Positions 14,423 to 36,206 of a DNA stretch of 64,000 nucleotides are shown here, in pieces. Position 1 is the stretch's first letter. Every line of letters begins with the position of its first letter. Made by a program: the position numbers and the translations under genes. Origin of the DNA: Flavobacterium haoranii (GTDB taxonomy: Bacteria > Bacteroidota > Bacteroidia > Flavobacteriales > Flavobacteriaceae); the NCBI RefSeq assembly GCF_009363055.1, contig NZ_CP045292.1:2604001-2668000 (forward strand), read 5' to 3'. The notes beneath the pieces are model-generated. The model was not told the origin of the DNA. It did not search any database and saw only the letters and a list, made by a program, of their open reading frames with translations.

Positions 14423-14494
14423 ATGAGATTTACTTGTTGTAGCGCGTGTACTTGTATGGGGAAAACATCCGCAGAGGAACGCTATTGCATTTAG
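14423..14494 (+). CDS. Cysteine-rich leader peptide (attenuator) ahead of cysE-cysM
   Basis: A 23-codon ORF. Residues 5, 6, 9, 11 and 22 are Cys (TCCSACTC at 4-11, and YC near the end). Five Cys in 23 residues directly before the two genes of cysteine synthesis is the pattern of an amino-acid-sensing leader. The ORF contains GCAGAGG at 14471-14477, which is complementary to the 5' arm of the downstream terminator (CCTCTGT, 14519-14525, one G-U pair; extends to 8 bp with C14470-G14526). A ribosome stalled on the Cys codons at 14435-14455 would leave this segment free to block the terminator; a ribosome reaching the stop at 14492 would cover it. No direct evidence of translation. Confidence 0.75.
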   Translation: MRFTCCSACTCMGKTSAEERYCI

Positions 14495-14514
14495 TTAAAC
14501 AAACTTTATATATG

Positions 14515-14548
14515 AAAGCCTCTGTGAAAATCCACAGAGGCTTTTTTA
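14515..14548 (+). terminator. Attenuator terminator before cysE
   Basis: AAAGCCTCTGTG (14515-14526) pairs perfectly with CACAGAGGCTTT (14533-14544) around AAAATC, followed by T-rich sequence. It lies between the Cys leader stop and the cysE start (14573), so it must be read through for expression of cysE-cysM. Confidence 0.88.
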
Positions 14549-14572
14549 TTTTCAATCCTATTCGAAAAACAA

Positions 14573-15391
14573 ATGAAAAATAAACTAAAAGAATTATTTG
14601 ATTTCAAACAGCAACAACAGCTTTTTTTGTTTGATAAGTTCAAAGCAGAAATTTGGAGCGAAGAACTTTTTAAATGGTTGTTTTTAGCAGGTGAAGAAAG
14701 TTGTCGCTTTGATTTGTTTGAAGAAAAAGTAACCGAGTTGAAAAGTGAACTAACTATTTTTTTGAAGCAATTAAAAGTTGAAAAAGCTTCAGAAGTTACA
14801 GCTTCATTTTTTGAAGAATTACCAACTATTCACAAGCTTTTGCTGGCTGATTTAGATGCTATATTGGAGTTTGATCCGGCAGCAAAATCACGTAGTGAAG
14901 TGTTGATGTCTTATCCTGGTTTTTTTACCATAGTAGTTCATAGAATAGCCTACTTTTTTTGGAACAAAGAAGTGCCGGTTTTTCCAAGAGTTCTTTCAGA
15001 ATATGCACATTCTAAAACAGGAATAGATATTCATCCGGCGGCTAAAATTGGAGAGCGCTTTTTTATCGATCATGGAACGGGAGTAGTAATTGGCGAAACC
15101 GCAGAAATAGGAAACGATGTAAAAATTTATCAGGGAGTTACGCTTGGAGCTTTAAGTGTAAGCAAAGACAAAGCCGAGCAAAAAAGACATCCGACTATTG
15201 AAGATGGTGTGATTATTTATGCGAATGCAACCATTTTAGGAGGGAAAACAATCGTAGGAAAAGGTTCCGTAATTGGCGGAAATGTTTGGTTAACCGAAAG
15301 TGTTCCTTCTCAAACTTTGGTTTTTCATAAAAGTGAAGTCATTGTGAAAGATAAAATCGATACCAGTAAAATAATCGATTTCAGTATATAA
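14573..15391 (+). CDS. cysE: Serine O-acetyltransferase
   Basis: Acetylates serine with acetyl-CoA to give O-acetylserine, the first committed step of cysteine synthesis. The N-terminal helical domain (residues 1-~135) is longer than the minimal SAT. The C-terminal left-handed beta-helix carries hexapeptide repeats: [44 protein letters not shown], with the catalytic [11 protein letters not shown] motif, then [22 protein letters not shown]. 272 residues. It is the first gene after the Cys attenuator and is followed 25 bp later by cysM, so the pair forms a two-gene cysteine operon. Confidence 0.95.
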
Positions 15392-15416
15392 TTGTAGAAT
15401 AATAAAACCAATAAAT

Positions 15417-16328
15417 ATGAAAGCAAATAATATTTTAGAAACTATCGGGAATACACCAGTAGTTAAATTGAACAAATTGTTTGGTGCTAATAAAAATGTA
15501 TTCATCAAACTAGAAAGAACAAATCCTGGAAATAGTATTAAAGACAGAATTGCTTTGGCAATGATTGAAGATGCTGAAGCTAAAGGTTTATTGAAACCGG
15601 ACAGCGTTATTGTTGAGCCTACTTCTGGTAATACGGGAATCGGACTGGCTTTAGTAGCTGCGGTGAAAGGATATAAAGTGATTTTAGTCATGCCAGAATC
15701 CATGAGTGTGGAACGAAGAAAATTGATGGAAATTTATGGAGCCGAATTTGATTTAACACCACGTGAAAAAGGAATGAAAGGTGCTATTGAACGCGCTGCC
15801 GAATTGGTAAAAGAAATTCCAAATGCATGGTCGCCTTCTCAATTTGATAATCCTGCCAATGTGGAAGTGCACCAACGAACAACTGCTCAAGAAATTTTAG
15901 CCGATTTTCCTGAAGGTGTAGATTACCTAATTACAGGCGTTGGAACAGGTGGACACATTACAGGTGTGGCTTCGGTTTTAAAAGAAAAATTTCCGAATGT
16001 AAAAGTAATCGCTGTAGAACCAGAAGCTTCGCCGGTGTTGAGTGGTGGTGAACCGGGACCGCATCCATTACAAGGAATTGGAGCTGGATTTTTTCCTAAA
16101 GTGTACAGACCTGAATTAATTGATGAAGTAATCACTGTGGGTAAAGACGAAGCGTTTGATTATGCTAGAAATATCGCCAAAGAAGAAGGAATTTTAGTCG
16201 GAATTTCAACAGGAGCTTCTTTAGCGGCAGTGTCTAAAAAAATCGAAAGCCTTCCGGATGATGCAGTCGTTTTAACATTCAACTACGACACGGGAGAGCG
16301 TTACCTTTCAATTGAAGGATTGTTTTAA
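15417..16328 (+). CDS. cysM: Cysteine synthase (O-acetylserine sulfhydrylase)
   Basis: PLP enzyme that replaces the acetyl group of O-acetylserine with sulfide to make cysteine. Motifs: [20 protein letters not shown] near residue 36 (PLP lysine in SIKDR), [15 protein letters not shown] near 64, [19 protein letters not shown] near 143, [12 protein letters not shown] near 172 and GISTGAS near 260. 303 residues is typical. The NPGNSIKDR wording leans to the CysM/CysK border, so the A or B isozyme name is not certain. Second gene of the cysteine operon; the methionine attenuator follows after 160 bp. Confidence 0.93.
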
Positions 16329-16461
16329 AGAGAAGTTCTCTTTTAATAGAATAATAATTTATTTAAACTAAACCTAAACGGTTTTAAAAACTATATTTTA
16401 GTTCAAAATAAGTAAAATTTAGAAAAAACAACTATTTATTTTTTTAAATAGAAAATAGTTC

Positions 16462-16469
16462 TAAATTTG
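16462..16469 (+). promoter_or_regulatory. Promoter -7 element of the methionine leader operon
   Basis: TAAATTTG, an exact TAnnTTTG match, 20 nt before the leader ATG. The -33 region is only T-rich (no clear TTTG). Predicted leader transcripts would start only a dozen bases before the ORF. Confidence 0.55.
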
Positions 16470-16489
16470 CCTTGTAAAAAAACGAAAAA

Positions 16490-16558
16490 ATGAAATTAAC
16501 TATGTGCAATATGTGTATGATGATGTGGAACAATCCGCAGAGGAACACTATGGCATAA
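16490..16558 (+). CDS. Methionine-rich leader peptide (attenuator) ahead of metY-metX-thrA-metZ
   Basis: A 22-codon ORF in which residues 1, 5, 8, 10, 11, 12 and 21 are Met and 6 and 9 are Cys (TMCNMCMMMW at 4-13). It precedes an operon making methionine from aspartate semialdehyde. The segment GCAGAGG at 16537-16543, within the ORF and after the Met run, is the exact complement of CCTCTGC (16594-16600), the 5' arm of the next terminator. Stalling at the Met codons (16502-16527) would free it to form an antiterminator. Nucleotide similarity to the Cys leader is obvious, including the ATG context and the block ATCCGCAGAGGAAC, but the two are read in different frames over that block. Translation is unproven. 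Confidence 0.78.
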   Translation: MKLTMCNMCMMMWNNPQRNTMA

Positions 16559-16590
16559 AGTAACTATTTTTCAAAAAACTATAATCCATA

Positions 16591-16618
16591 AAACCTCTGC
16601 TTTTGCAGAGGTTTTTTT
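16591..16618 (+). terminator. Attenuator terminator before the methionine operon
   Basis: AAACCTCTGC (16591-16600), TTTT loop, GCAGAGGTTT (16605-16614), then a T-run. A perfect 10-bp stem 33 nt after the Met leader stop. No other terminator separates it from metY at 16738. Confidence 0.9.
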
Positions 16619-16637: not shown

Positions 16638-16688
16638 ATGAAAGTGTATTTGCCGAGGCGATGTTGCCGAATGTGTTGCCTAGACTAG
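16638..16688 (+). CDS. Possible second mini-ORF with CCRMCC motif between attenuator and metY
   Basis: A 16-codon ORF (MKVYLPRRCCRMCCLD) with four Cys and two Met, beginning 20 nt after the attenuator T-run and ending 49 nt before metY. CCTAGA and TCTAGG (16679-16696) form a 6-bp hairpin over its stop codon, but with no T-run. It could be a second sulfur-sensing leader acting on translation, or chance. No homology recognised. Confidence 0.3.
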   Translation: MKVYLPRRCCRMCCLD

Positions 16689-16737: not shown

Positions 16738-18030
16738 ATGAGCACACAAAAATTTGCAACAAACGCCCTTCACGCAGGTTATGACGTGAAACAAAATAGA
16801 GGAACAAGAGCTATTCCAATTTATCAAACTACATCGTATGTTTTTAACGATGCAGATCATGCCGCTAATTTATTTGGTTTAGCAGAACCCGGTTATATTT
16901 ATACAAGATTAAACAATCCAACGAATGATGTTTTGGAACAACGTTTAGCAGCACTAGAAGGAGGAATTGGAGCGGTGGTAACTGCATCGGGAGCTTCGGC
17001 TATTTCTACCACTTTACTAACTTTACTAAAAACGGGCGATCATATTGTGGCTTCCAATAGTTTATATGGCGGAACCTATAATTTACTGAATGTTACATTG
17101 CCAAGACTAGGAATTACGACCACTTTTGTAGATCCTTCGGATGCTAAAAACTTTACCGATGCGGCTCAAGACAATACCAGAGCATTTTTCGCAGAAACTT
17201 TAGGAAATCCAAAATTAGATATAATCGATCTAGAAACTATTGCTAGCGAAGCAAAAGCATTCAAAGTTCCATTTATAGTAGACAATACGGTACCTTCTCC
17301 TTATTTGTTAAACCCAATTCAGTTTGGAGCAGATATCGTCATTCATTCGTTGACCAAATATATTGGTGGAAACGGAACTTCATTAGGTGGTGTAATTATC
17401 GATGCCGGAAATTTTGACTGGAGCAGTGGAAAATTCCCCGAATTTACGGAGCCATCAGCAGGTTACCACGGATTAAAATATTATGAAGCGTTAGGAGCGG
17501 CTTCGTTTATAGCGAAAGCAAGAATTGAAGGATTACGTGATTTAGGAGCGGCATTAAGTCCGTTTAATGCATTCCAAATTTTACAAAGCTTAGAAACTTT
17601 GGAAATCCGAATCAAAAAACATAGTGAAAATGCTTTGGCTTTAGCAAAATGGTTAAGCGAACAAGACGAAGTAGCTTGGGTAAATTATCCAGGATTAAAA
17701 TCGAGTAAATATTACGATTTGGCGCAACAGTATTTACCAAAAGGGCAATCAGGAATTGTAACCTTCGGTCTAAAAGGTGGATTTGATGCAGCTAAAAAAG
17801 TGGCTAATGAAACGCAATTATTTTCTTTATTAGCGAATATTGGGGATACCAAATCGTTAATCATTCACCCAGCGAGTACAACTCACCAACAATTGACAGA
17901 AGAACAGCAAAAAACTACTGGCGTGACACAAGATTTAATTCGTTTGTCAGTTGGTTTAGAAGATATAGAAGATTTAAAATCCGATTTACAAGCGGTTTTT
18001 GAAAAACTTGCCGTAAATACAACAGTTTAG
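16738..18030 (+). CDS. metY: O-acetylhomoserine sulfhydrylase
   Basis: PLP-dependent Cys/Met metabolism enzyme; forms homocysteine from O-acetylhomoserine and sulfide. 430 residues, the longer length of MetY-type enzymes as opposed to ~390 for MetB/MetZ. Motifs: ATNALHAGYDVKQNRGTRAIPIYQTTSYVF at the start, ALEGGIGAVVTASGASA near 75, the PLP lysine block DIVIHSLTKYIGGNGTSLGGVI near 200, and SLIIHPASTTHQQLTEEQQ near 378. First structural gene after the Met attenuator. A hairpin follows its stop. Function assigned by length and the co-transcribed MetX acetyltransferase. Confidence 0.93.
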   Translation: MSTQKFATNALHAGYDVKQNRGTRAIPIYQTTSYVFNDADHAANLFGLAEPGYIYTRLNNPTNDVLEQRLAALEGGIGAVVTASGASAISTTLLTLLKTGDHIVASNSLYGGTYNLLNVTLPRLGITTTFVDPSDAKNFTDAAQDNTRAFFAETLGNPKLDIIDLETIASEAKAFKVPFIVDNTVPSPYLLNPIQFGADIVIHSLTKYIGGNGTSLGGVIIDAGNFDWSSGKFPEFTEPSAGYHGLKYYEALGAASFIAKARIEGLRDLGAALSPFNAFQILQSLETLEIRIKKHSENALALAKWLSEQDEVAWVNYPGLKSSKYYDLAQQYLPKGQSGIVTFGLKGGFDAAKKVANETQLFSLLANIGDTKSLIIHPASTTHQQLTEEQQKTTGVTQDLIRLSVGLEDIEDLKSDLQAVFEKLAVNTTV

Positions 18031-22813: not shown

Positions 22814-22953
22814 TTTGTTATCACGAAAGCTGGAGGGAATAGACCCTGCGAAAGCTTAGCAACCCTACACTTGTAGAAGGTGCTACATTCTATTTCGATT
22901 TTATCGGAAAAAGATAACGTTAGAATTTCTTTCTGGTTTTCTGCGATAACAAA
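22814..22953 (+). ncRNA. SAM-I-type riboswitch upstream of metH
   Basis: P1 is TTTGTTATC (22814-22822) with GATAACAAA (22945-22953). Inside are the conserved SAM-I blocks: TGGAGGGAATAGACCCTGCG, GAAAGCTTAGCAACCC, and AAGGTGCTACATTC. P2 pairs AGCT with AGCT, P3 is CTAC-ACTT-GTAG (22865-22876), and P4 is ATTCTA (22887-22892) with TAGAAT (22921-22926). No terminator follows within the 47 nt before the metH start, so control is probably at translation initiation, as suggested for many Bacteroidota riboswitches. Confidence 0.88.
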
Positions 22954-36116: not shown

Positions 36117-36206
36117 ATGAAAAATTTCGTAACATATTTTAACAACTTTTATTATTTCTTTTTCTGGAGAGAAAAGGGATTGTTGTTATGCTATGTTAAA
36201 AAGTAA
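36117..36206 (+). CDS. Phe/Tyr/Trp-rich leader peptide (attenuator) ahead of pheA operon
   Basis: A 29-codon ORF with 6 Phe, 4 Tyr and 1 Trp, concentrated in YFNNFYYFFFW (residues 7-17). It sits directly before genes for phenylalanine and tyrosine synthesis. GGGATTGTTGT at 36176-36186, just after the aromatic run and still inside the ORF, is the exact complement of ACAACAATCCC at 36234-36244, which includes the 5' arm of the following terminator. Stalling at the aromatic codons would leave that 11-nt segment free to form an antiterminator. The three Leu codons after the run (GLLL) could be incidental. Translation is unproven. Confidence 0.82.
   Translation: MKNFVTYFNNFYYFFFWREKGLLLCYVKK

Follow-up and report, generated by a model that had tools for sequence, protein, structure and literature searches.

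Cysteine- and methionine-codon leaders of Flavobacterium form a family of putative transcription attenuators in which a conserved antiterminator block is read in different frames

The window, that is the whole stretch of 64,000 nucleotides analysed here (Flavobacterium haoranii, assembly GCF_009363055.1, contig NZ_CP045292.1, positions 2,604,001 to 2,668,000 of the forward strand), contains a sulfur amino-acid cluster. Two short leader ORFs, one with a run of Cys codons and the other with a run of Met codons, precede genes of this cluster (Table 1), and in both cases an intrinsic terminator lies between the leader ORF and the first gene. The Met leader is followed by genes for the O-acetylhomoserine sulfhydrylase (OAHS), for a metX-like protein that does not reach the cut-off of its family, for a bifunctional aspartate kinase/homoserine dehydrogenase and for another protein of the sulfhydrylase/CGS type. 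The cluster also includes metK, encoded on the minus strand and preceded by a SAM-II riboswitch, as well as a SAM riboswitch at position 22815. In each leader, the control codons are predicted to pair with the end of the block shared by the two leaders (1:2 hairpin). The inner stem of this hairpin is TGGGGA:TCCGCA with one G:G mismatch in the Cys leader and TGTGGA:TCCGCA in the Met leader. A further short ORF, MKVYLPRRCCRMCCLD, is present at positions 16638-16688 between the Met terminator and OAHS, and is possibly a further Cys-sensing leader without terminator; its PRRCCRMC core and its DNA recur in L035, L036, L122, L125, L127, L134, L138, L150 and L155. Around position 36175 of the + strand, the Phe/Tyr-rich short ORF MKNFVTYFNNFYYFFFWREKGLLLCYVKK, followed by a terminator, represents a candidate Phe leader.

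Table 1. Leader features and first genes of the two transcription units in the window.
Feature	Position	Strand	Basis
Cys leader peptide ORF, 23 codons, MRFTCCSACTCMGKTSAEERYCI	14423..14494	+	ATG 14423, stop ends 14494
Control Cys codons 5, 6, 9 and 11 of the Cys leader	14435-14455	+	sequence
Shared block, Cys leader (antiterminator strand GCAGAGG at 14471-14477)	14467..14490	+	sequence; terminator-arm pairing
Predicted 1:2 hairpin, Cys leader: control codons (about 14438-14447) with block end	14438..14489	+	folding, family comparison
Intrinsic terminator, Cys leader: 13-bp stem, U run	14514..14547	+	sequence, folding
cysE, serine O-acetyltransferase, first gene after the Cys leader	14573..15391	+	NF041874 above cut-off, TIGR01172 below cut-off
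cysK, cysteine synthase A	15417..16328	+	TIGR01139
Met leader peptide ORF, 22 codons, MKLTMCNMCMMMWNNPQRNTMA	16490..16558	+	ATG 16490, stop ends 16558
Control Met codons 5, 8 and 10-12 of the Met leader; Cys codons 6 and 9	16502-16525 (Met codons)	+	sequence
Shared block, Met leader (antiterminator strand GCAGAGG at 16537-16543)	16533..16556	+	sequence; terminator-arm pairing
Predicted 1:2 hairpin, Met leader: TGCAATA (16505-16511) with TATGGCA (16549-16555)	16505..16555	+	folding, family comparison
Intrinsic terminator, Met leader: 11-bp stem, U run	16590..16618	+	sequence, folding
metY-type O-acetylhomoserine sulfhydrylase (OAHS), first operon gene after the Met leader	16738..18030	+	TIGR01326

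The shared block, ATCCGCAGAGGAAC[G/A]CTAT[T/G]GCAT, is identical at 22 of its 24 nt between the Cys and Met leaders. Its pattern displays exactly two matches in the 2.87 Mb genome, and the reversed control none. A slightly shorter pattern, with at most one mismatch, has no match in 396 other genomes of the family, only two of which are of the same genus. Both leaders and the block are found where an earlier note, made from the letters of the window, had placed them, except that its block coordinates were one base too high. The same note held the two leaders to be homologous, and this is borne out by a profile trained on 67 OAHS leaders, with all terminators, the window itself and its four near relatives excluded. 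In the window this profile ranks the Met leader first (E 1.8e-18) and the Cys leader second (E 1.2e-8), followed by a place with an E of 2.8. Other Cys leaders are recovered as well: L038 (E 1.5e-12), L035 (E 1.2e-9) and L036 (E 1.3e-5).

A covariance model (R1) was built from 29 leaders. Both window leaders, which are part of this training set, match it at 124.7 and 101.2 bits, and both possess a GCAGAGG block complementary to the terminator, which together define the family of leaders A. With E <= 1e-4 per genome, R1 has matches in 221 of 299 genomes of Flavobacterium, some of which supplied training leaders. A threshold of E <= 0.01 would give 242 of the 299 genomes and is too lax, given that five further matches pass it in the window's own genome alone. 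With the stricter threshold, matches were detected in 28 of 299 genomes of a draw from the family (two of genus Flavobacterium; 22 of 236 genera), and in 16 of 296 genomes of a draw from the phylum, all 16 belonging to Flavobacterium (1 of 139 genera). Judged by these matches, the leaders are a family present in most Flavobacterium and scattered in other genera of its family. For inspection, 30 loci and 100 stretches were taken from the best-scoring R1 matches listed, and loci from a separate set were added. Removal of 11 duplicates and of 16 matches scoring below 60 bits reduced the resulting 173 R1 matches to 146 distinct leaders.

Most of the identified targets of the family are sulfur amino-acid genes, namely metY/OAHS, metX-like genes, cysE-cysK and CysH/CysD-type genes, and Met-type leaders with the same block are located upstream of OAHS in many Flavobacterium. 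Gene naming was checked by Pfam on single examples, and the names "CysH-like" and "CysD-like" were given by length and by eye since both match PF01507. In addition, 24 of 139 inspected leaders are directly upstream of a TonB-receptor-like gene, which is not biosynthetic (L215, L221, L223, L226, L234, L235, L237, L276 and others); the example checked with Pfam contains a TonB plug domain.

Several other leaders were observed alongside the family. A second leader, 'B', is found upstream of OAHS, with a peptide of the type ..MMCC.MM.MCIP..CCQK, the antiterminator GCCAAAAG and the terminator CCTTTTGG..CCAAAAGG. It is situated after leader A, or alone near the gene, so that tandem attenuators would precede one operon at several loci (leader B: L118, L120, L121, L123, L124, L128, L132, L136, L137, L141 and others). 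Leaders with other antiterminator sequences and runs of five or six Cys codons occur upstream of cysE-like genes in L043, L052 and L079 (MAGs labelled Bacteroidales and Saprospiraceae). In the window's own genome, the leader peptide MNNILNNTWWWINLRRMS precedes a TrpE-like gene and MKNLFIIIAAIIIVIPQLQRIGI a class IV aminotransferase gene (IlvE-like), both with a terminator (G000:C1:602312-602452, minus strand, and 1573613-1573747, plus strand; compare L176 and L178). Homology of these Trp and Ile leaders to the present family is not claimed, because they score 45.3 and 40.9 bits with R1 and a place that does not resemble a leader scores 41.4 bits.

The control codons are maintained in a single frame. 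Among the 146 leaders, 144 have an ATG at the model position, and codons 2-13 are without stop in all 144. The mean number of Cys and Met codons in this stretch is 5.03 in frame; the two alternative frames average 1.97 and 0.15, and a stop interrupts them in 115 and 64 of the 144 leaders, respectively. In 129 of 138 leaders, 8 or 9 nt separate the end of the last control codon from TCCGCAGAGG. The codon content follows the function of the target. Outside the window clade, residues 5-13 comprise on average 3.18 Cys and 1.94 Met in leaders before cys genes (n=17), and 1.99 Cys and 3.27 Met in leaders before met genes (n=80); leaders of the first group thus have more Cys (p 4e-8) and fewer Met (p 2e-6), p values that ignore the relatedness of the sequences. 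Cys and Met codons are mixed in many members and the window clade is the most specialised, with 4.00 Cys and 1.20 Met in its Cys leaders (n=5) and 1.80 Cys and 5.00 Met in its Met leaders (n=5). The motif TAnnTTTG, which we take to be the Bacteroidetes -7 element, occurs within 70 nt upstream of the ATG in 46 of 145 leaders but not in any control stretch. In the window, it is present before the Met leader, and the Cys leader shows only a near match. The AAAAAATG starts of the leaders agree with the preference for upstream adenines described for F. johnsoniae mRNAs, which are without Shine-Dalgarno sequence according to PMC6847099.

The strand GCAGAGG had been proposed in the earlier note as the antiterminator, and its covariation with the terminator supports this. 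Of 181 distinct leaders, 179 have a terminator, although the search model itself contained the terminator. The mean helix between block and terminator is 6.43 in 179 leaders, a value reached in none of 1000 swaps of the terminator arms between leaders, which give 6.09 on average. For the 24 leaders with a variant terminator arm, the mean is 6.08, and exchanging the arms within this group lowers it to 4.98, with none of 1000 swaps as high. Examples of covariation are GCAGCG with CGCTGC (L288, L296) and GCAAGGG with CCCTTGC (L290, L304); 8 of the 24 variant terminators pair with the block over at most five bases. The 1:2 helix TGCAATA:TATTGCA is more weakly supported across the family than the pairing of antiterminator and terminator. 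Its mean is 6.28 versus 6.08 on swapping (115 leaders; 0 of 2000), and 5.80 versus 5.59 for the 60 non-consensus variants (2 of 2000), which would pair better with the consensus strand (6.37 of 7). In the alignment, 93.1% of the cells of this helix are paired and 14 changes on both sides were counted versus 4.9 in shuffles (0 of 500). Shuffles do match two other measures: 58 of 500 reach the number of pairs with a change on both sides, and 116 that of further pair types. The helix is weakened in many members, including by an A:G mismatch in the window's Met leader.

Folding from the block onwards gives -26.1 kcal/mol (Cys leader) and -22.3 kcal/mol (Met leader) for the terminator state, and -14.6 and -15.7 kcal/mol, respectively, for the forced antiterminator. 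The part of the Cys leader that precedes the terminator folds no better than shuffles (z 0.02). When the 3' arm of the terminator is omitted, the Cys leader is predicted to fold into the antiterminator (-17.4) without any ribosome. Since the antiterminator would then form before the 3' arm, the default of the untranslated Cys leader may be read-through, and this predicted fold runs against the simplest picture of attenuation.

The distance between the ATG and the block is 44 nt in the Cys leader and 43 nt in the Met leader, as the earlier note had counted, and the block is thus decoded in different frames. The note had warned that the difference of one nucleotide could come from a missing homopolymer base, at GGGGAAAA of the Cys leader, as it claimed such losses elsewhere in the assembly. 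The same 44 and 43 nt are nevertheless found in all five assemblies with both leaders, i.e. the window, L035 (a Flavobacterium sp. MAG), L036/L200 (an F. haoranii MAG), L038 (a Bacteroidia MAG, where the Met-type leader precedes a metX-like gene rather than OAHS) and L187 (G564). The bases after GGGGA vary among several of these five, and both frames are encountered throughout the genus. The offset is therefore not a homopolymer error of this assembly; the independent assemblies rule out this source, to which we assign practically no probability. They also show that the pair is not restricted to the window, a case for which the note had allowed, as four relatives carry both copies with the block.

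Frames were counted in leaders having the block, within three mismatches, at offset 43-48 from the ATG; 7 of the 146 leaders were without it, which leaves 139. The block is read as TCC GCA GAG (SAE) in 89 of them, as CCG CAG AGG (PQR) in 49 and as CGC AGA G (RR) in one. By first downstream gene, the PQR and SAE readings number 38 and 33 for OAHS, 4 and 4 for metX-like genes, 2 and 8 for CysH-like genes and 1 and 8 for unknown genes. For cysE there are 3 PQR, 7 SAE and the single RR. The only leader before a CysD-like gene is PQR, and SAE is the only reading before CGS-like (2), ThrA-like (2) and TonB-receptor-like (24) genes and in the one leader without gene in its stretch. The earlier note had tied the frame shift to a change of amino-acid specificity. 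These counts rule out the frame as a mark of specificity, since it does not track the target gene, as the almost even division before OAHS illustrates. An OAHS tree (70 rows) has 4 changes of frame on the best topology, and the strongly supported branches alone force only one. By eye, the Cys leaders and some Met leaders seem to take up the extra base in the apical loop of their inner hairpin (TGNGGA:TCCGCA), and in others it resembles a bulged C (TGTCGGA, TGCCGGA).

The earlier note had deduced from the change of frame that selection acts on the block as RNA, and the larger set of leaders strengthens this view. GCAGAGG, inside the leader ORF, is read in all three frames, for which reason we place its conservation at the RNA level. 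The nine bases TCCGCAGAG are 0.89-1.00 identical within each frame class, with third codon positions on a par with the first and second. The last G is 0.84 identical in the PQR class and only 0.25 in the SAE class. Conservation of the block as a peptide, for nascent-chain arrest or as a functional microprotein, could be suggested by the tails, which are alike within one frame class (PQR..IA and SAE..I[VA]). However, the same nucleotides encode SAE, PQR or RR in different species, the third codon positions are 0.94-1.00 identical except for the last G of the PQR class at 0.84 (in rows preselected for a block with at most three mismatches), and block and terminator change together. The three frames rule out conservation at the peptide level, and we consider that explanation extremely improbable. 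A single frame is thus maintained across the control codons, and beyond them any frame occurs.

It had also been proposed that one of the two window attenuators arose from the other. A recent duplication in this lineage, the Cys leader deriving from the Met leader or the reverse by point changes and a frame shift, would fit their homology and their distance of 2 kb. The clade Cys leaders also score higher with the Met than with the Cys training leaders (29.7 versus 23.8 bits for the window), although whole-profile scores lean to Met without separating the two sets (67 and 17 training leaders). The nearest relatives outside the clade are split, however. For each of the five clade Cys leaders, the nearest is a leader before a CysH-type gene with CMGKISAE.. 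in the same SAE frame (L205, or L205 and L242 tied). For all five clade Met leaders it is an OAHS leader, four having WNNPQR and that of L038 having WKISAE. Moreover, leaders before both cys and met genes are present in other genomes, e.g. G428 (L188, L155), G593 (L173, L192) and G672 (L195, L239). A recent duplication is thus unlikely and the proposed derivation is not supported. Because the nearest relatives differ, the Cys/Met paralogs are, with moderate confidence, probably older than the window clade. In L035, CysE is 96% identical to that of the window and OAHS only 83%, so that an exchange of part of the cluster may have occurred in this MAG contig or in its lineage. A metabolite-binding riboswitch or a T-box, in place of a leader read by ribosomes, could be imagined from the SAM-II and SAM-I riboswitches of the same cluster. 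This is very unlikely: no Rfam family reaches its gathering score at either leader, where matches up to E 1 remain far below it, and the ORF is open with in-frame Cys/Met runs in 144 of 144 leaders.

We regard the two leaders, with high confidence, as paralogous ribosome-mediated transcription attenuators of one family. Comparison of the leaders shows their homology, the one open frame of the control codons, the covariation of antiterminator and terminator and the freedom of the frame; that ribosomes stall, in what order the steps follow and that the genes respond to Cys and Met is what we infer. A shortage of charged Cys-tRNA (or Met-tRNA) would stall the ribosome on the Cys or Met codons, the last of which ends about 8-9 nt before TCCGCAGAGG. 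A ribosome in this place would mask the 5' strand of the 1:2 hairpin without reaching GCAGAGG. The latter, left unpaired, would bind the 5' arm of the terminator, and the polymerase would read through into cysE-cysK in one case and into OAHS and the rest of its operon in the other. With an ample supply of the amino acid, the ribosome would reach the stop just past the block, and cover or release the block, and the terminator would form. The block would be kept as RNA, and the frame used by the passing ribosome would be irrelevant. By our estimate, a ribosome at the stop codon would cover GCAGAGG only partly, which counts against this explanation, as do the weakened 1:2 helices, the short pairing of 8 variant terminators and the 24 leaders upstream of a TonB-receptor-like gene.

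The mechanism itself is of a known kind. The ribosome-mediated transcription attenuators of Escherichia coli and Salmonella include the trp, his, leu, thr and phe leaders. Like these, the present leaders have a short ORF with a run of regulating codons, a predicted alternative pairing of the type 1:2, 2:3 and 3:4 and a terminator with a U run. They differ from them by the Met and mixed Cys/Met codons, by an antiterminator strand located within the ORF and read in varying frames, by an A-rich start without Shine-Dalgarno sequence and by the absence of an Rfam leader match at gathering score. A Met-codon leader is odd in itself, because starting its translation also needs methionine. According to PMC8632094, the uORFC-8-2 motif of the cysS leader of Rhodobacterales likewise combines tandem Cys codons in an upstream ORF with an intrinsic terminator, but concerns another phylum and gene, with the Cys codons usually at positions 14 and 15. 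Another published leader ORF with Cys codons also precedes cys genes, without a conserved terminator hairpin; its authors suggest Rho dependence and report that methionine operons of Actinobacteria lack a conserved upstream RNA structure. Attenuation in Flavobacterium is not new as such, since the excerpts of PMC9723704 report 'strong clues' for it upstream of amino-acid operons of F. psychrophilum; the examples given there, as conserved structured elements, are pheA, hisG and others, and these excerpts contain neither cys or met cases nor an analysis of block or frame. The present family is not described in the accessible parts of PMC9723704, PMC7366714, PMC2965389, PMC8632094, PMC1262725 and PMC6847099. 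Among the matches listed in literature searches on leader-peptide attenuation (Bacteroidetes, Flavobacterium, cysteine, methionine), as far as their text was accessible, neither this family, nor Met or mixed Cys/Met coding, nor a frame-free antiterminator was found. The matches listed for Met-codon attenuators include no example, those for Met leaders being unrelated medical work.

The 139 homologous leaders, with three frames and several target genes, constitute a dense natural experiment that separates constraint at the RNA level from constraint at the peptide level. We tentatively propose, at somewhat less than even confidence, that one RNA chassis, made of the control-codon strand, the frame-free antiterminator block and the terminator, is a modular attenuator that has spread across Flavobacterium genes for sulfur amino acids. 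By a change of the upstream codons only, it would sense Cys, Met or both through one stalled ribosome, and it would include Met-codon attenuators. The leaders suggest how an attenuator may be re-aimed between amino acids, and they add a Cys/Met leader family to a phylum for which little attenuation is described in the literature searched.
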